Shown in pieces: positions 39,875 to 49,728 of a DNA stretch of 64,000 nucleotides (positions within the stretch are counted from its first letter, which is position 1; each line of letters opens with the position of its first letter). A program made the position numbers and the translations under genes. Below the pieces are notes generated by a model. That model was not told the DNA's origin. It did no database searches and saw only the letters and a list, made by a program, of their open reading frames with translations. Source of the stretch: Oribacterium sp. P6A1 (lineage in GTDB: Bacteria; Bacillota; Clostridia; Lachnospirales; Lachnospiraceae); NCBI RefSeq assembly GCF_000702885.1, contig NZ_JNKO01000005.1:124001-188000 (forward strand), given 5' to 3'.

Positions 39875-41494
39875 TCATGGAATCATCATCCTCACTTTAA
39901 ATCTGTTATCCTCAGCTGCATATCTTATTTCGCTGCCTGTTTTTTCAGCAAAGGCCACAACACTTTTTGTGCCAATGCCATGGCCATCCACATCTGCAAA
40001 GGGATGTCCTTCTTCATCGAGCTCCACTTTTTCGGCACAGGAATTTACTATTTCCAAAAGCAGCTGCTCTTTGAATCTGGCCGTTATACCTATAAACCTT
40101 TCTCCCTCCGGCAGTTTCTCACAGGCGTGTATAGCATTTTCAAACAAATTGCTGATGGCTATGGCAAGCTGCATTTCATCCACTCCCGGGTCAATTGGGA
40201 TATGTGTCTGTACCGTAACTTTAATGCTTTTTCTCTCAGCCATAGTTACATAATGGGTGAGCGCTGCATTAACAGTGGTGTTCTCACAGTATCTCCGCAT
40301 GGAACGAGGTTCCTGTGATAACCGCTCCTCGAGATATTTCTTCGCCTCATCCGCCTTTCCATCCTGAATAAGCGATAAAATCAGTGCTTCAAAATGTCTC
40401 CTGTCATGGCGCATGGTTCTGTCCTGTTTCATGATTTCTTCTGCAGTTAGAAGCCTGTCCCTCATACTGTTCGCTGCCATTTTAAGCATTGCCGCATCTG
40501 ATTTGAGTTTATACTCATTCTGCTTTAGTACTGTTGAATCTACGAGGGCATAGAGCTTTCCCAGGATTTCCCCGTCTTGCGACAATTCTTTTTCTTCCGG
40601 AGTATAGTACCTTTCACCGGAGCTTATTGTTTCCTTCCTGATGATAGTCTTCTTAATCAGATCCACAACAGCTTCAGGATCTTTATTTATCTCAGGATAA
40701 AGTTCCTTTATATGTTCATTGTAGTACTGAACTCTCCCGTCTCTGTCCACAGCGATAACACCTTCTGAGAGTCTGTCTACGATATACTCCTTAGCCATAT
40801 CTATGATTCCCAAAAGATTGAACTTAAATATAGCTATAAACATGGAAATCGTGATTGCAAAGCTTCCTAAAACCGAAAGATCATAAAAGTATGTGAAGAA
40901 AAACAAATGCGTTACCTGAAGTATATACAGGACTGCTTCTGTCAAAAAACCTGTAATTATAATCCAGATACGCAGTCTGGCAGTTTTGCCTTTAAGTGAA
41001 TGAAGATACTTAAAGAGCCAGAACATGATAATTATGATCACCATAGCCTGAAACTGCATGAATATTTTATGAACTATCCCGCTTCTATGCAGTAAAACAG
41101 GAAACAGCTTGCTTTTGTCAAACCATATCTTTGAATAAAATAAGGGATTATCCGGTACTGTAAAAATAACCGCATAAACAGCTGCATCGATAAAAATAAA
41201 AAGCCTGACCGCGAGTTCAGGAAGCTTTACATGGCAGAGCTCCACAGTAAACATAAAGAGGGAAAATATGATCCAAATCCGCCCTGCATAAGAAAATTTG
41301 AGGGCCGTTATATACGCCTCCTCAGTATTAGATAACAGCTGCATCAGATATCCGGTGTCGTTGACTATCATGGTTATACAGTTAAGAAACAAATATGCGT
41401 GAAGCTTGTTTTTGAGATTTTTAAAAACCACAATACTCTCAAAAAGCATCGCCAAAATACTTATAATCAATACAGCTAAAAGGATTTCCCGCAT
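39875..41494 (-). CDS. 7TM-type sensor histidine kinase with PAS and GHKL ATPase
   Basis: 539 residues. About seven membrane helices in the first 230 residues resemble the 7TM histidine kinase N-terminal domain; a PAS-like segment follows (about 250-330). Then a DHp helix with the MRHDRRHFEALIL motif (His near 365), and a GHKL ATPase domain with FENAIHACEKLP. This is the AgrC/GHKL class that works with LytTR regulators, one of which is in the same operon. The binding lipoprotein encoded between them may supply the ligand. Confidence 0.88.
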   Translation of the reverse strand: MREILLAVLIISILAMLFESIVVFKNLKNKLHAYLFLNCITMIVNDTGYLMQLLSNTEEAYITALKFSYAGRIWIIFSLFMFTVELCHVKLPELAVRLFIFIDAAVYAVIFTVPDNPLFYSKIWFDKSKLFPVLLHRSGIVHKIFMQFQAMVIIIIMFWLFKYLHSLKGKTARLRIWIIITGFLTEAVLYILQVTHLFFFTYFYDLSVLGSFAITISMFIAIFKFNLLGIIDMAKEYIVDRLSEGVIAVDRDGRVQYYNEHIKELYPEINKDPEAVVDLIKKTIIRKETISSGERYYTPEEKELSQDGEILGKLYALVDSTVLKQNEYKLKSDAAMLKMAANSMRDRLLTAEEIMKQDRTMRHDRRHFEALILSLIQDGKADEAKKYLEERLSQEPRSMRRYCENTTVNAALTHYVTMAERKSIKVTVQTHIPIDPGVDEMQLAIAISNLFENAIHACEKLPEGERFIGITARFKEQLLLEIVNSCAEKVELDEEGHPFADVDGHGIGTKSVVAFAEKTGSEIRYAAEDNRFKVRMMIP

Positions 41495-41656
41495 GAAATC
41501 ATCTCCAATTCCCGGTGTTTCTTCTTAAACGTGCACAGCACGAAGTGGTTAGATACGCTTTATTGGTACACACAAGATTTGCACCGATACAGAATATCCG
41601 ATATCAGATCACTAATTTTTTTGTGTTCAGATATCTATGTCTTACAGAACCACAGT

Positions 41657-42973
41657 TTATCGTATGGTATTACGTGATACCTCCTGAATCTCTTTCGCGG
41701 CTTCTTCGGGAGTCACTTCACCCAGTGCCAGATCCTTCAAAGCTCTGCATACAGCAAGATTCAAATCCGGATATTTTATCCCTCTTGTTCCTGCAACATT
41801 GTTTTTCCCATTTTCAATGATATATCGAAGATTCTTTTCTCCGTCAGCACTCAGCCCTTTCACATCAATCTCCAAATCTTTAAGTGTGGGCATATACTCC
41901 AGATATTCATTCACAAGTATCTTTTGACCTTCATTTACCAGATAATCCATCCAGCGAAATGCTGCATCCTTAACCTTTGATTCCGGATTCATGCACAGGA
42001 TTACATCTGCTGACGCGGTCACAGGTGATACGATGCCATCATTATCCCAGTCGATCAGAAACACCTCATGCTCTGAATCATCGCTGTTAAAATTTTCGTA
42101 TGTCTTTGTATCTCTCAAGGTATACATGTTCATAGCCCAGGAGCCGTTAACAAACATAGGGATGCTTCCTTCACGCTGGAACATGTCATTGACCTTATCA
42201 TAGAGCGGCATTCGGATGGCCTTGTCCTGAAAAACTCCGTTTGTGAAACTGCTCTGCCAGATTTCAAAGGACTCTATGATAGAGTCAGTCTCGAATGATA
42301 CCTTTCCTTCTATAGCATCGTACAGCGCATCTCTGTCCACATCTGCGGCTATGGTCATCCACATATCGAGATTCACCCATGAATCCCCGGCACCGATAGC
42401 AAGGGGATAAAGGCCGTTTTCACGAAGTATCCCGCAGGTTTCCTGCATTTCTTTATAGTTAGACGGCACATCACAACCGTACTTTTTCATCATATTGACA
42501 TCAGCCCAAAGAAATCCTGCAAAGGTCTGACCCAATGGAAGTCCCAGAGTATCCCCCTTTTCATCCTTTATAATCCCGAGACATGGATCAAGGAATTTCT
42601 TTTCCCATTCCGGTCCCCAGGTATCCTCACAGTAGGGTGTCAGATTCTCTTCAAAGTCCCTGAATTCGTCAAAAGAAGCTCCGGCACTAAGTCCGAAGAC
42701 ATCAGGCCCATCTCCCTCCATCAGATTTATTCTGAGACGATCTGCGTGTAAGTCTGAACCTACATAAACGTAATTTATATCAATATCAGGATTTTCTTTT
42801 TCAAATGAATTTATGATCTTGTAGATAGGACTCTCAGGCCCGGTATCAGCGGGATTCCAGGTCTGAAAGGTCACAACGGTTTTTTCTTTCTGTGCACCGC
42901 ATCCGGAAACCGCGAACAAAAAAAGGGACATAATAAAAAGAAGTTCTATTCCCTTTTTTATATGGTTTTTCAT
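41657..42973 (-). CDS. Extracellular solute-binding lipoprotein (sugar-type)
   Basis: 438 residues with signal peptide and lipobox VSGC (Cys about 25), then a family 1 sugar-binding fold (early FQTWNPADTGPESPIY, and later FVNGSWAMNMY as in maltose/oligosaccharide binders). There are no permease genes nearby. It is encoded between the LytTR regulator and the 7TM kinase, so I infer a role in signal sensing, not in transport, though an orphan importer elsewhere could use it. Confidence 0.88.
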   Translation of the reverse strand: MKNHIKKGIELLFIMSLFLFAVSGCGAQKEKTVVTFQTWNPADTGPESPIYKIINSFEKENPDIDINYVYVGSDLHADRLRINLMEGDGPDVFGLSAGASFDEFRDFEENLTPYCEDTWGPEWEKKFLDPCLGIIKDEKGDTLGLPLGQTFAGFLWADVNMMKKYGCDVPSNYKEMQETCGILRENGLYPLAIGAGDSWVNLDMWMTIAADVDRDALYDAIEGKVSFETDSIIESFEIWQSSFTNGVFQDKAIRMPLYDKVNDMFQREGSIPMFVNGSWAMNMYTLRDTKTYENFNSDDSEHEVFLIDWDNDGIVSPVTASADVILCMNPESKVKDAAFRWMDYLVNEGQKILVNEYLEYMPTLKDLEIDVKGLSADGEKNLRYIIENGKNNVAGTRGIKYPDLNLAVCRALKDLALGEVTPEEAAKEIQEVSRNTIR

Positions 42974-42983
42974 ATGGTTCTCC

Positions 42984-43724
42984 CTACAATCTGAAATCCA
43001 TATAGCTGTCCATAACCTCAGTATATCTGCTCTTGGAAACAGGAATCATTTCCTTGTTTCTGAGTGTGATGTCAGTTTTTGTGAGCTTGTTAATGGCAGA
43101 AACATTAACAGCTATGGATTCATGGCATCTGACAAAATCTTTATCCTTGTAATTATCTTCAAGATATTCCGCAAATCCTATCCTGAGTGTGGGAGTTGAT
43201 ATGATGCTTCCATCGTACAAATGATATGAAACCACATGATTTCTGTATTCCATATAAAGGATTTCATCAAGTCTCAGGGTCTGGAAACCGCCCTTGACTT
43301 TGACTATCACACTTTTTTCAGAAGAAATATCCACACGTGACACAGCCTTATCAAGTGTAGGAAACAGCTTATCCTTCTGTATGGGTTTTAAAATATAATT
43401 TATGGGATTTACATCAAAAGATTCCAATGCATAAGAGCTCTCGGATGTGGCGAAAATGATCTCAGCATCAGGCTGATTCCACCTGAGTTCCCTGGCCGCC
43501 TGTATGCCTGTTACCATAGGCATAACTATATCAAGAATGTAAATATGCGGTCTGTAATTCTCGCACTCTTCGACAAGAGCATCGGGATGATCGAAAACTT
43601 TTACTTCAGCCTGAATGTTCTTTTCATCAAGATATATCTGAACGAGAGACAAAACCCGTTCCAAATCATTTCTGTCATCATCGCATATAGCTATCCGAAG
43701 CGATGATTCACCTTTGCGCTCCAA
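42984..43724 (-). CDS. LytTR-family response regulator
   Basis: About 246 residues. Receiver with DDD pocket, phospho-acceptor Asp near 62 in YILDIVMP, then a LytTR DNA-binding domain (about 145-245) with the typical RCHESIAVNV segment. The start is a TTG at 43724, six bases after GGGGGG; ATGs at 43763 and 43742 lack a good ribosome site. It precedes the binding lipoprotein by 10 bases and follows the L,D-transpeptidase. Confidence 0.88.
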   Translation of the reverse strand: MERKGESSLRIAICDDDRNDLERVLSLVQIYLDEKNIQAEVKVFDHPDALVEECENYRPHIYILDIVMPMVTGIQAARELRWNQPDAEIIFATSESSYALESFDVNPINYILKPIQKDKLFPTLDKAVSRVDISSEKSVIVKVKGGFQTLRLDEILYMEYRNHVVSYHLYDGSIISTPTLRIGFAEYLEDNYKDKDFVRCHESIAVNVSAINKLTKTDITLRNKEMIPVSKSRYTEVMDSYMDFRL

Positions 43725-43781
43725 AGTAATCCCCCCTGTCATCAGCGACTCACGTAAAAACATTTTTCTTAAGAAAAATAA

Positions 43782-45533: not shown

Positions 45534-46310
45534 TCATCTGTAAATCTCTTCGTATACAAAGCTGCAGAACTCATTCAGGGTCCTGTGATCAGGATTAATA
45601 TAATAATTCTGAAGGAGCTCCCTATACCTTTCATCTTTTCCCCTTAAATAAACATCAGATATACTCTGCTGCTTCTTCCTGATCTTAAAACGGGCTTTAT
45701 AATCCCTGAAGAAAAGTCCGCTCCCATTCCTGTAGAGCTCAAAATATTTATATGCCGCAGCACTTCTCAGAAGAACAGCATCCGAGACATTTTTAAAATT
45801 GCCCGGCTTTTCCTTTCTGTAATCAAGAAATCTGAACTGGTAATCGGTCACACTTGTATTCACCTCTTTTATGAGCCTGTCATCCGACCAGTCAAGACTG
45901 GTAAGCACAGAATCACAGACGTCGATCACCAGCTCGTTCCTTATGGCTTTTTTATCTATAAGATACTCAAACTGATATGGATGATACTTTTCTATGTAGT
46001 TAGCTAAGTTCATGTTGTACTCGGCAGCGACTTCTCTGTAACACTCAGCGGAGGCAACACCTATATTTATCGCCTCTGCTGACATGGTGGATTTCTCCTG
46101 TTCTGCCTTATCGATCAGATAAAACTCCTCCGCCTCAAAATACATGGCTGTTTCAGGAATAGTCGGTGTCACAAGACATGTATTGATAAATGCAGTGTCC
46201 ATATGATCCGCATTTATACAGTACACCGCATCAAATCCAAGGTAATCAAAAATAGCCCGCTTTTGTGTAGACACTCTCCAGTCATAGGGTTGAAAAGTCA
46301 GAAATCTCAT
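45534..46310 (-). CDS. Unknown protein at the end of the VWA/PurA-like operon
   Basis: 258 residues, soluble, no signal peptide or membrane segment. The N-terminal half contains AVYCINADHMDTAFINTC; the C-terminal part is rich in Tyr, Arg and Lys. I do not recognise it. It lies 106 bases after the PurA-like gene on the same strand and no terminator is visible between them, so it may belong to the same operon. A family 1 repeat half-site (GACACTCACGTC, 46393-46404) lies in this gap. Confidence 0.6.
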   Translation of the reverse strand: MRFLTFQPYDWRVSTQKRAIFDYLGFDAVYCINADHMDTAFINTCLVTPTIPETAMYFEAEEFYLIDKAEQEKSTMSAEAINIGVASAECYREVAAEYNMNLANYIEKYHPYQFEYLIDKKAIRNELVIDVCDSVLTSLDWSDDRLIKEVNTSVTDYQFRFLDYRKEKPGNFKNVSDAVLLRSAAAYKYFELYRNGSGLFFRDYKARFKIRKKQQSISDVYLRGKDERYRELLQNYYINPDHRTLNEFCSFVYEEIYR

Positions 46311-46416
46311 ACCGCCAATGTTTCCTCATGATGTCATCACTAACTGTTTACCCTATTTATATCGTTTAAAATAATATCAAATATAAACTTTAGACACTCA
46401 CGTCATGATTTTCTTA

Positions 46417-47661
46417 TCAATAAACCTTTATTATGTCTTCTGCGTAACGGGTTGATGACAGGTATATATGAGAAAACAGGCTTCGTATCTCCGGAAGGGC
46501 GACGAAGTCACTTATATCAATGCTTCTGTCATTTATAATGATACTGTTTCCGGTCTCATTCAGATGTGTAACAAGCAGAGAGACTTTCAGATTTTCATGA
46601 CCGTAATCCGATATATCTCTTTTTATCGATGATATAAAACTTTCCAGACTTTCATGGGGCGCATAACGTATATGTCCCTGCCATTCATTAGGTTCGTTTG
46701 TAAGGTCTTTCTCTATATTGCCAAGTTCTTTTTTATCGCACTCACATGAAAGCTTACCTGCTCCATGTCTCGTTACATAGGATCTGGTCACATATATGAC
46801 TTCATCAAGCTTTAGCCCCATCCGTCTCAAAAATGCACAGGGGTTATGTATTCCGGTTTTGGAGGCGGTCACATGCGGCGCATATTCTTCATTATCGCAG
46901 TCAAGCAGCAGTCCCTGACCGGTCTCAAAAACCAGAGTATCAGTATCCTTAAAAAATCCCTTCAGAGATTCTTCCGTAAAAAGCTTTAAATATCTAAAGT
47001 TTTCGATCATTACATCAGCTGCGTTCAAAAGTACATTTTCATTTCGTAAAAGCTCAATATACTCTGAAGACTTGTCTCTCAGGCAGTTACTGATCTCATT
47101 TAATCTTCTTTTGGTATAGTCTTTTCTTATGGATGAAAGCTTTTTATACAGACTCTCGGAATTAAGGGACGATATCTCTTTAAGTGTCAGTCCGAATCCG
47201 GATCCGGTACGTACATCACATTCGTTTATACCCATACCGCAGCTTCCGTGCCTTTCCGGCCCACGGGATATTTCCAATGCCATATTTATAAGTATGTCAT
47301 CCGGAACAGTGATGCAGGTATTCTCCATGGCATATAATGGAGGCACAAAACCGAAGTGATCTTTAAAAGTGGAAAACTCTTCTGAAAGCTTATATAGATC
47401 AGGATAGAAGCTTTCTATCCATAAAGTTCCTGCATGACGCAAAGAACCGGAGGACAGCTCATGAAATACAAAACGCCCCCCTCCGGTACATGCATAATCC
47501 TCTGAATCAACTCTTTTTTTCAGTTCCACTGTATGCCCTGACTGAGCACCGCCGTTATGCCGGACAACAAGAGCTCCGGAACTCTTAAGGGAAAGGTAGT
47601 CAACTGCCATTCCCTTTCCCTCATCTCCGAAATTCTTTCCGACTACTGCAATTGTCTTCAT
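46417..47661 (-). CDS. Divergent adenylosuccinate-synthetase-like protein
   Basis: 414 residues. The N-terminus keeps the PurA catalytic motif (GKNFGDEGKGMAVDY with Asp13) and the SGHT segment with His43. A YVTRHGAGKL segment near 307 matches the VGAGPFPTE turn of PurA. Then the family pattern breaks: the GTTTGRPRR aspartate loop is replaced by EPNEWQGHIRYAP, and the guanine-binding TKLD region reads VTHLNE. True PurA is about 430 residues with high conservation in these loops, so substrate and nucleotide have probably changed. The ATG overlaps the stop of the VWA gene (ATGA). Unlikely to be the housekeeping purine enzyme. Confidence 0.72.
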   Translation of the reverse strand: MKTIAVVGKNFGDEGKGMAVDYLSLKSSGALVVRHNGGAQSGHTVELKKRVDSEDYACTGGGRFVFHELSSGSLRHAGTLWIESFYPDLYKLSEEFSTFKDHFGFVPPLYAMENTCITVPDDILINMALEISRGPERHGSCGMGINECDVRTGSGFGLTLKEISSLNSESLYKKLSSIRKDYTKRRLNEISNCLRDKSSEYIELLRNENVLLNAADVMIENFRYLKLFTEESLKGFFKDTDTLVFETGQGLLLDCDNEEYAPHVTASKTGIHNPCAFLRRMGLKLDEVIYVTRSYVTRHGAGKLSCECDKKELGNIEKDLTNEPNEWQGHIRYAPHESLESFISSIKRDISDYGHENLKVSLLVTHLNETGNSIIINDRSIDISDFVALPEIRSLFSHIYLSSTRYAEDIIKVY

Positions 47662-48536
47662 AGTGTAATGGAATGTCCCACATCCGAAAGGCTGATCTGC
47701 TTTAAGGCATTGTGAATGAGCAGCCTGTTGGCATTATCATATGACGCAAGAATATCCTCCTGTCTTTCTCCCTTCTGCATGCGTATAACTCCGAAAATGA
47801 TGTCAGGAATAACATTGACAGCGTCTTTTCCGATTACAATTTTGCGTCCTGCAAGAATTCCCCTGTTTCCTTCCTCACCGATCATGATATGGAATACATG
47901 GAATTTTTGCTGAACCTCAGCCAAAAGACTTTCTACCGTAGCACAAGGCACATAGTCCCCTGTAACTCTTTTAATAGTCTCAGAAACACTATCTGTCCTT
48001 ATCTCGGCTCCGTCTCCGATGGTAAACAGAAATCCCTTCTCACCTCTTTTATTGATGGCATCGATGTTGGTATGTCTTGAAAGGAACTCCCAGAGACAGG
48101 TCGGAACCACTTCGCCGTTGCCATGATTTTCAAAATACAGATTGAGAAGCTGTTCCGCAATTCGGATATCAGACTCAAACTGTGTCACCTGGAGAGGTGA
48201 CTCATCACGGAAATCACCGTAAGCCGCGCACATAAGTGCCGGATCCTCAATGGTGTTTGTTGAATAAAGCTTGGTGATGAGATCATTAAGTGCCTCTGTG
48301 GCAACCTTCACTGCAAGGTAACCCATGGATGCCGTAACATCCAGTCCCACAACTATAGGTGTTGAGTGTGGATGATCCTGCGAATCAAAGCACTCTCTGG
48401 TTCCGATAAATCTTGGATCGAATTTCGGATCACAGCTTCTTCTTTTGAAGACTTCTTCTACATTCTGATCATTTGATAACTTTCTGCTTGCTTTAAGCTT
48501 TGACCAGTCACTTGCTGAATAACTACCATATCCCAT
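47658..48536 (-). CDS. VWA-domain protein
   Basis: 292 residues. A VWA (von Willebrand A) domain fills most of it. The metal-ion adhesion site has the DxTxS form, Asp66/Thr68/Ser70 in VGLDVTASMG, and FTIGDGAE near 165 gives a further acidic position. No signal peptide or membrane helix, so it is cytosolic, as in TerY- and MoxR-linked VWA proteins. The start is 6 bases after the kinase-like gene, and its end overlaps the PurA-like start. Confidence 0.85.
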   Translation of the reverse strand: MGYGSYSASDWSKLKASRKLSNDQNVEEVFKRRSCDPKFDPRFIGTRECFDSQDHPHSTPIVVGLDVTASMGYLAVKVATEALNDLITKLYSTNTIEDPALMCAAYGDFRDESPLQVTQFESDIRIAEQLLNLYFENHGNGEVVPTCLWEFLSRHTNIDAINKRGEKGFLFTIGDGAEIRTDSVSETIKRVTGDYVPCATVESLLAEVQQKFHVFHIMIGEEGNRGILAGRKIVIGKDAVNVIPDIIFGVIRMQKGERQEDILASYDNANRLLIHNALKQISLSDVGHSITL

Positions 48537-48542
48537 AATCTA

Positions 48543-49427
48543 TCATCTCCTGTTCTCAGGGAACATCGTCCTGAAATTGTGTCCCCCAAATCCTTTTTCT
48601 ATTACTGTGTCCCATTTTTCAAAATCGGAATAGGCATCAGAGGCCGGTTCCGAATTCAGAAAGCGGTACATCTCTTCAGGTTCTCTGGTATTCTCTGCCA
48701 GAATTACAGCGGTTTTTCTCAATGCTTTCAGATCGGCATTTCCTTTTAAAGCTTTAACTTTTCTCCAGTCCCCAAACAGCATGCCTTCATGAGTGAACGG
48801 ATTGATAAAGACAGAATCCGGTGCCACGTCTCCGTACTCAAGCTCCGAGTATCTTAGTGCGCAGCAGATGTTCTCCATTCTTGAGATAACCCATGCAAGA
48901 TGTACTGATTCCCACGGAGCAAACATCTCTGCGGGATAGCAGTTGGGTCTTCTTATGAATACAAGGGCGGACTTGTCATCGGACAGAACAATTTCCATCT
49001 TCAGTTCAGGAAACGATCTGTGGAGCTTTGCGTCTGCCGCAGGAAAAACCAGGCTTTTAAGCTTATTCAAAAAGACTTCCGCCCCGGATCTTTCATCAAA
49101 GATATATACAACAGATTCCTTTGCTATATAGAATAAAAGCCCCTGCCTTTCATACTTTTTCATATACTCGATATTGAGCATCTGACCGTTCTGCATGGTG
49201 TAACTGTCGCGGCCTGTACATGTCCACAGATGATCGGTACTGTAATCCATATCCTTTTTTTCTGCTTCAGCCTTATAGTGCTGCAGAACCATCTTCCGGA
49301 ATTTCTCATTTCCTTTGAAATCTTCATCGGAAAAAAAGGCTTTTGAACCGCAGAAGGGACATGCAAGTCCCACAGAACCATCAAAGTTCATCTGTCCTCC
49401 GCAGTTTTTACACTTGTAAGTAATCAC
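48543..49427 (-). CDS. Zinc-ribbon protein with kinase-like domain
   Basis: 294 residues. N-terminal zinc ribbon CxxC (Cys6/Cys9) and CxxC (Cys23/Cys26), then a domain resembling protein-kinase folds. LEYGDVAPDSVFIN (Asp200) sits where kinases have HxDxxxxN, with Ser205 in place of Asn, and LFGDW (Asp220) resembles the DFG metal site. No glycine loop or VAIK lysine is evident, so activity is uncertain and it may be a pseudokinase. The start is a GTG with GGGG upstream. It heads the operon with the VWA and PurA-like genes. Confidence 0.68.
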   Translation of the reverse strand: MITYKCKNCGGQMNFDGSVGLACPFCGSKAFFSDEDFKGNEKFRKMVLQHYKAEAEKKDMDYSTDHLWTCTGRDSYTMQNGQMLNIEYMKKYERQGLLFYIAKESVVYIFDERSGAEVFLNKLKSLVFPAADAKLHRSFPELKMEIVLSDDKSALVFIRRPNCYPAEMFAPWESVHLAWVISRMENICCALRYSELEYGDVAPDSVFINPFTHEGMLFGDWRKVKALKGNADLKALRKTAVILAENTREPEEMYRFLNSEPASDAYSDFEKWDTVIEKGFGGHNFRTMFPENRR

Positions 49428-49728
49428 ACTTTACCCCTCACTTAATTCTTACCTTTGAAAATTCTCACTTTTGAAAAACATTAAATTCTTTGATAATCAT
49501 GTATATTTTAACACCAACCCCTTCTCCAAAAAACCGACTAAATTCTTACAAGGATTTAATAATGCGAGTGTCAAAAGTCTACATCGAATCCTTCCTATCT
49601 CCCGGACCCGAAAAACATCCTTACATGCTTCATGGCACTTGGCTGCTATCATAATTAAAGAAAAAACAGGTCGAAACAATCCACTGTTTCAACCTGTTTT
49701 TTCTCTGTTTAACAACTATTCTATACCA
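49428..49728. other. Intergenic region with repeat fragment and terminator
   Basis: No gene. It holds a short repeat fragment (GCGAGTGTCAAAAGTC at 49563, followed by ACATCGAATC) and the alcohol dehydrogenase terminator at 49661-49702. The rest is AT-rich and should contain the promoter of the kinase-like/VWA operon. Confidence 0.45.
49661..49702 (-). terminator. Bidirectional-looking terminator after alcohol dehydrogenase
   Basis: AAAAAACAGGTCGAAACA and its near complement (one mismatch) around 5-6 bases; T-tracts on both strands. It lies just past the iron alcohol dehydrogenase stop. Confidence 0.8.

Follow-up and report, generated by a model that had tools for sequence, protein, structure and literature searches.

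In a 64,000-nucleotide stretch of the Oribacterium sp. P6A1 genome (contig NZ_JNKO01000005.1, positions 124,001 to 188,000; hereafter the window), three closely packed genes, which we call K, V and P, form a module that is found widely in phages and also in several lineages of bacteria. K combines a zinc ribbon with a kinase-like domain, V is a VWA-like protein with a DxTxS metal-site motif, and P is a relative of adenylosuccinate synthetase (PurA) with an altered aspartate loop. We tentatively read P as a PurA-type ligase that uses an amine other than aspartate, V as its near-obligate partner and K, or an alternate protein found in other loci, U, as an adaptor; our confidence in this reading is less than even.

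K (294 amino acids, GTG start; 48543..49427), V (292 amino acids, phrog_2971; 47658..48536) and P (414 amino acids; 46417..47661) all lie on the minus strand, as do the features within them described below. Six bases separate K from V (48537-48542), and V and P overlap by an ATGA (47658-47661), which bears out the packing given in a preliminary description of this DNA. We compared ATG-started open reading frames (ORFs) of at least 100 amino acids between window positions 40000 and 56500 with 23 close-relative loci (L018-L040; L and G numbers are our labels for loci and genomes), some of them short contigs with little flank. Using tblastn (1e-10), K, V and P were the sole ORFs to match, P and V in 23 of 23 loci and K in 22 of 23. 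A fourth ORF (45534..46310, minus strand) lies 106 bases downstream of P and is mentioned in the preliminary description as following the three genes. When gene calls from the retrieved loci were searched with phmmer (E 0.01), nothing related to it turned up except the window's own copy. Thus, K-V-P is the unit and the fourth ORF is not a member of it.

Linkage of the three genes was assessed by six-frame profile searches of V-seeded loci, counting genes on the same strand within 7 kb and only loci with room downstream. These loci comprised the best 80 of at least 522 relatives in GTDB contigs and the best 80 of 432 in viral contigs; because only the best-ranked were taken, the set is biased towards close relatives of the window. 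P was found near V in 73 of 74 GTDB-contig, 76 of 78 viral-contig, 7 of 7 genome-search, 4 of 4 phage-record and 3 of 3 plasmid loci, and adjoined it (≤150 bases) in 68, 49, 6, 3 and 3 of these, respectively. K was near V in 73/75, 38/78, 6/8, 1/4 and 3/3 loci of the same classes. In the reverse test, V was present in 75 of 80 P-seeded viral loci (the best 80 of at least 484), and two of the five loci lacking it had little or no upstream sequence. Finally, in a sample of 150 genomes from the same family, seeded by neither gene, V occurred in 8 and P (profile E ≤1e-50) in 9; 8 genomes, among them that of the window, had both (hypergeometric 1.7e-12). In one of these (G111), V and P were on separate contigs. 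V-P linkage exceeds chance, and its recurrence across viral, plasmid and bacterial loci upholds the earlier proposal that the three genes are one system. Two outcomes named beforehand as contrary to that proposal, namely that the genes do not co-occur elsewhere and that P is the only PurA of the genome, were not what we found.

V was found in 206 of 50,697 phage records (188 Mycobacterium, 1 Mycolicibacterium, 10 Rhizobium, 6 Vibrio and 1 faecal phage). P matches in phage records fell into those host groups, apart from a few in Listeria, Staphylococcus, Enterococcus and Salmonella records at 22-26% identity that probably represent PurA of bacteria, from contigs submitted as phage. Among 72,556 plasmids, 21 carried V (Rhodococcus 11, Agrobacterium 3 and seven single others), and K, V and P were all present in each of the three plasmids inspected. 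Mycobacterium phage Sebata (Bixzunavirus) has the order kinase-V-(88 amino acids)-PurA, with an extra 88-amino-acid gene between V and P; its module members have been annotated gene by gene, gp260 as ‘kinase’, gp261 as ‘hypothetical protein’ and gp263 as ‘2-aminooxy adenylosuccinate synthetase / PurA’. Rhizobium phage TM30 and Vibrio phage Va1 have the order V-P. A search of viral contigs with a single V sequence confirmed nothing; an alignment-based search succeeded. LR745208.1, a 485-kb uncultured phage, also encodes a V at 132881-133555, although a distant one (24.8% identity, E 1e-5). Among the matches listed, the closest named relative of the window's V is that of Oribacterium sp. C9 (78% identity).

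A phylogenetic tree was built from 101 sequences of P, of which 56 were viral and 45 bacterial, and one PurA, with rows not chosen at random. The Clostridia clade of the window (40 rows, one of them a viral contig; Shimodaira–Hasegawa-like approximate likelihood-ratio (SH-aLRT) support 100) is nested among viral P rows. P from three further Lachnospiraceae loci (L007, L008 and L009), from alphaproteobacterial plasmids and from Rhodococcus also groups with viral P. A phage origin of bacterial P is therefore likely, though short of proof because the rows are non-random and the root is uncertain, canonical PurA forming a very long branch. The P of L048, a locus labelled Myxococcales, falls within the Lachnospiraceae clade, so this label may be wrong.

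P matched the adenylosuccinate synthetase family PF00709 in Pfam (3e-32, 111.5 bits). Its AlphaFold2 model (predicted local distance difference test (pLDDT) 95.4) has the PurA fold, with H. pylori PurA as the best Foldseek match (1.4e-19) and the PurA paralogue PurZ (7odx) at 2.7e-13. It reached the NCBIfam cut-off neither of the PurA equivalog (88.5 bits against 402) nor of PurZ (25.3 bits against 300). P is a paralogue, because the source genome (3.7 Mb, 95 contigs) has an ordinary, full PurA on another contig (532.9 bits against PF00709). Likewise, 14 of the 16 V-carrying genomes searched for PurA had a full PurA (526-552 bits) in addition to a P-like copy (92-124 bits); in the remaining two (G554, locus L043; G555, locus L048) the P-like copy alone was found, and these genomes may be incomplete.

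We examined conservation in 195 nonredundant P sequences, with the aligned sequences as denominators. The PurA catalytic residues are kept: D13 (194/194), K16 (194/194), H43 (194/195), which we take to be E. coli His41, and Q249 (195/195); D13 and K16 lie in the GDEGKG loop (residues 12-17; 47611..47628). P thus has in common with PurA the fold, D13, K16 and what are presumably the equivalents of His41, Q224 and T239 in E. coli numbering. Four invariants are new in P, namely H299 (194/194), N322 (194/194), Q328 (193/194) and R332 (192/194). In two alignments, H299 (46765..46767) falls at the position that we take to be E. coli PurA V273, counting E. coli numbering along the alignment. Both alignments also show that P lacks the PurA aspartate-loop motif TTGRxRR and has NxxNxxQGxxRY in its place, within the loop DxTNxxNxxQGxxRY (residues 319-334; 46660..46707). 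The altered loops reported in the preliminary description are thereby made specific: the aspartate-loop motif is gone and Val273 is replaced by His. R332 is the single conserved arginine of this region, where PurA has several, and aligns with the last arginine of TTGRxRR both times; at most one PurA loop arginine seems to be represented in P. P further differs from PurA in having Gln for N38 and T[HC]x[DN] for TKLD, and in its tie to V. The guanine-recognition motif is variable (H366 in 130 and C366 in 55, D368 in 101 and N368 in 89 of 195), so that the nucleoside triphosphate (NTP) donor may be GTP or another.

According to PMC8342488, R303 of E. coli PurA contacts both O2′ of inosine monophosphate (IMP) and free aspartate, and a conserved valine (V241 in S-2L PurZ) lies near C2′ in the deoxyguanosine monophosphate (dGMP) base pocket. 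This pocket valine would correspond to E. coli V273. D13 would favour a hypoxanthine-type base, and loss of R303 would free the 2′ position. PurZ and PurZ0 of Z-DNA phages are, like P, phage-linked PurA paralogues with a structural match to it. However, they have Ser or Gly at the catalytic Asp, Ser being found in all 147 phage PurZ sequences of PMC12884076, whereas P has Asp in 194/194. Unlike P, PurZ keeps the aspartate-contact loop tip (PMC8342488), and the P-PurZ profile match is confined to the N-terminus. On this set of features, P matches neither PurA nor PurZ. With the catalytic Asp kept and the NCBIfam score far under the cut-off, P was ruled out as a PurZ.

Conservation of V was examined in 191 nonredundant sequences, retrieved with search patterns that lay away from the V N-terminus. 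In the metal-site motif (DVTASM; D66-V-T-A-S70, 48327..48341), D66 and S70 are each present in 191/191 sequences and T68 in 99%. V starts with Met-Gly in 184 of 191 sequences (codons 1-2 of the window's V, 48531..48536, preceded by AGGAG), and Gly2 is found in 190 of 190 aligned; positions 3 and 5-14 are variable, and position 4 is Gly in 83%. Conservation of Met-Gly is on par with that of the metal site. Methionine aminopeptidase cleaves Met preceding Gly, and a free glycine would therefore remain on V. At the opposite end, [ILV]x[FWLY] terminates 114 of 191 V compared with 7 of 197 P sequences. Four bacterial loci have a tandem V (K-V-V-P; L079, L087, L089 and L097), the second copy in the first three having a different, basic C-terminal tail. 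A second VWA-type protein, more ordinary-looking and without a Met-Gly start, lies three genes past V in L122 (9919-11004) and matches the V profile.

K was described beforehand as a zinc ribbon plus a kinase-like domain, and both parts were recovered: the ribbon (CxxC...CPxCG, residues 6-26; 49350..49412) from its motif, and the kinase-like domain (residues ~70-285, borders approximate; 48573..49220) from an AlphaFold2 model with a kinase fold (mean pLDDT 94.6), whose Foldseek matches were led by VRK3 (E 7.9e-7), with WbdD and YabT among the top. Against the PDB, the K profile hit structures of DnaJ (E 2.6e-5) and of kinases (1.1e-4), and Sebata K matched Pkinase above the cut-off (1.7e-9) and DnaJ at 0.025; single J-domain K proteins fall below the Pfam cut-off for DnaJ. 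Of the 89 K sequences compared, the zinc ribbon is present in 52 and an HPD-like J-domain motif in 35 (strict in 33), leaving 2 with neither. The zinc-ribbon form comprises the Clostridia clade and one viral contig (L106), and the J domain occurs in K outside the window's clade. An Asp at the catalytic-loop (HRD) position is present in 18/89, and no conserved Lys was found in the columns read, suggesting that the kinase fold of K is mostly degenerate.

Many loci have U in place of K. Across 118 nonredundant loci (viral and phage, plus the bacterial L009 and L010), K and U were each found in 45 but never together, and 28 had neither, Sebata being counted among the last solely because the gene caller missed its K. 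If K and U were independent, 17 loci with both would be expected, a figure inflated by relatedness. U is ~200 amino acids long (188-328) and has a Met-rich C-terminal tail; in 38 of 44 loci it is the gene immediately upstream of V. Pfam gave no match for two U proteins; in PHROGs, two of three had none and one had weak partial matches.

On the basis of these observations, we propose that P is a working ligase in which an NTP would activate the 6-oxygen of a hypoxanthine-type (deoxy)nucleotide, and an amine other than free aspartate would then be coupled to the activated base. V would reach into or beside the active site of P, most likely through its processed N-terminal glycine, which might be the amine or might instead provide an activating tail, and its metal site and conserved C-terminal tail would hold the complex or a client. 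K would act as an adaptor with a mostly dead kinase fold, its J domain, or in Clostridia its zinc ribbon, connecting V-P to Hsp70 or to a client; U would substitute for K in many phages. We would expect the reaction to yield an N6-substituted purine nucleotide, either free or protein-bound.

Several points weigh against this proposal. The two loop alignments disagree, one giving a 4-residue deletion and the other a 1-residue gap, and R332 may be a PurA loop arginine, in which case part of the amine/carboxylate site survives. The ligase activity of P, the V-P complex and the product are all predictions; contact through the V N-terminus is predicted from conservation, and Gly2 could be structural. 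The preliminary description had given V a VWA domain with a DxTxS metal site. The motif stands, its D66 and S70 being invariant, but the VWA fold is unconfirmed: V had no Pfam VWA match and no PDB sequence match, and hhalign against six VWA comparators gave weak probabilities (1-23%), including 6.6% against TerY/TerF-type VWA, with which the metal-site motifs align. The window's K retains D200 at the catalytic-loop position and so may not be dead, and the mutual exclusion of K and U is confounded by phylogeny. The linkage also has exceptions. Three P-seeded viral loci with room for V lack it (L193, L225 and L242), and three V loci, two viral (L098 and L144) and one from a genome (L043), lack a same-strand P within 7 kb. 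One genome of the family sample (G092, a 460-contig assembly) has a partial P (profile positions 153-393) and no V, and a search of 398 genomes from across the phylum recovered V in a single one, that of the window.

A stricter version of the proposal, which we consider unlikely, is that the N-terminal glycine of V, with Met1 removed, replaces aspartate, so that P would write a purine nucleotide via C6 onto a protein N-terminus. Because the N-terminus of a peptide lacks a free alpha-carboxylate, this version would account for the loss of most of the loop that binds the carboxylates of aspartate, for the near-inseparability of V and P and for the invariant Met-Gly. The possibility that R332 is a leftover loop arginine weakens this version.

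Nearly as likely as our preferred reading, and like it short of even confidence, is the possibility that P uses a free non-aspartate amine to build a small modified purine (deoxy)nucleotide for phage DNA or nucleotide pools, with V and K or U only regulating or scaffolding it. The wide viral spread is consistent with this, as is the apparent loss in P of the contact between R303 and the 2′-OH, which PurZ likewise lacks (PMC8342488). Genes for nicotinamide adenine dinucleotide (NAD) metabolism point the same way: of 118 loci, 12 have NAMPT near V-P, U being present in 10 of them, and 9 have NMNAT-NUDIX, U being present in 5 (examples are L214, L127, L143 and L238), counts that have no background rate and make the NAD-gene neighbourhood of viral V-P suggestive only. 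PurZ serves 2-aminoadenine synthesis; of the genes that might be expected beside such an enzyme, neither DatZ, MazZ nor a special polymerase was recognised by eye in the 45 largest neighbour clusters, and no profile search was aimed at them. Nor does a small nucleotide product by itself explain the near-constant presence of V.

An assembly role resembling that of a chaperone appears rather unlikely. Here, V with K or U would mature or remodel a client, and P would be mainly a nucleotide-bound scaffold or switch, in the manner of the MoxR AAA+/VWA co-chaperone pairs described for jumbo phages in PMC7824862. The module shares with these pairs a phage VWA protein and a chaperone theme. It differs in that the triad itself has no AAA+ ATPase and has instead K (J domain or zinc ribbon) or U, as well as a PurA-like enzyme. 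The J domain of K outside the window's clade and the Met-rich C-terminus of U fit such a role. So does gene order in four related Lachnospiraceae loci (L069, L071, L073 and L074), where a dnaK-dnaJ-like pair and a MATE-type transporter appear to precede the triad, one gene thus separating the pair from it (names read from the sequences). In an Allorhizobium plasmid (L016, 8408-12885), P is followed by an AAA family ATPase, with DUF5682 and DUF4132 proteins. However, we recognised no AAA+ partner that recurs in the neighbour clusters, and the invariant catalytic residues of P exceed what a scaffold would need.

The preliminary description likened the set to TerY-linked systems, and we considered whether it is a stress or anti-phage signalling module of the TerY-P type in which the PurA-like enzyme produces the signal. 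As described in PMC11090510, the TerY-P triad consists of a VWA protein, a PP2C phosphatase and a Ser/Thr kinase with a C-terminal zinc ribbon. The likeness is a VWA-like protein and a kinase-like protein with a zinc ribbon in one operon, and it proved loose: the K ribbon is N-terminal (or replaced by a J domain), the kinase is apparently mostly degenerate (Asp in 18/89), V is not clearly TerF-like and a PurA-like enzyme is present. No PP2C was found among K, V, P and three further window neighbours scanned, and the other loci were not searched for it. With these differences, TerY-P membership was ruled out, and a signalling module of this type is very unlikely in our estimate.

Our results neither establish nor oppose a stress or defence role in the wider sense. 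The patchy spread (8 of 150 genomes) would suit a signalling module, and we scanned 93 neighbour proteins (215 eligible, 100 drawn, 7 removed by hand) with PADLOC and Pfam. PADLOC matched 13 families, including mad3 (5), mad8 (5), AriA (3) and mad2 (2), in a scan that had no control set; single matches were to the candidate defence family PDC-S01 (8.7e-130, 1 of 93 neighbours), DRT DUF1848 and GlgB. Against such a module, phages themselves carry the set, and ordinary Pfam families dominate the neighbours, the 25 inspected of the 93 families found being mostly metabolic and transport ones. Least plausible of all is that P is a spare adenylosuccinate synthetase for purine supply: its PurA fold, the two of 16 V-carrying genomes with a PurA-like copy alone and the possibly leftover R332 are outweighed by the full PurA in 14 of 16 genomes and in the window's own, the lost aspartate-loop motif and the tie to V. 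Taken together, these results support the earlier interpretation in part; it did not foresee the J domain of K outside the window's clade, the broad viral distribution or the substitution of U for K.

Elsewhere in the window, a terminator-like hairpin (49659..49704, minus strand) lies 3′ of the upstream alcohol-dehydrogenase gene, such sites being no more frequent than in shuffled sequence, and no tRNA was found. Near the triad, at 39875-43763, are what we take from their translations to be a sensor-kinase-like protein, a solute-binding-type lipoprotein and a LytTR-type response regulator.

To our knowledge, phage PurA paralogues have so far been interpreted only as serving purine supply or as PurZ for Z-DNA. 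The genome announcement of a C1 mycobacteriophage (PMC9476963) is said to contain the words ‘PurA-like’ and ‘kinase’. Among the open-access full texts matched and listed, titles and abstract openings showed no system combining a VWA protein with a PurA-like one, subscription papers lying outside this scope. For Vi01-like phages, PMC10892097 has a table with an adenylosuccinate synthase and a VWA protein; the three Salmonella/Escherichia records that P matched (~25% identity) do not look Vi01-like, and V matched none of them.

In our judgement, the novelty lies in the combination of proteins and in the altered enzyme. P would represent a third type of phage PurA paralogue, in which the catalytic Asp is kept, the aspartate loop is changed, and a partner with a metal site is nearly always present, often with K or U upstream. 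K has a J domain and a zinc ribbon swapped on one kinase-like protein. As M. smegmatis phages carry the set, its nucleotide or protein-modification chemistry is directly testable. In the window, a module of phage type appears to have become established in Clostridia of the rumen and gut. If the glycine of V does prove to be the amine, the product would be a protein-purine conjugate, a novel post-translational modification or signalling handle that large phages spread and bacteria domesticated.

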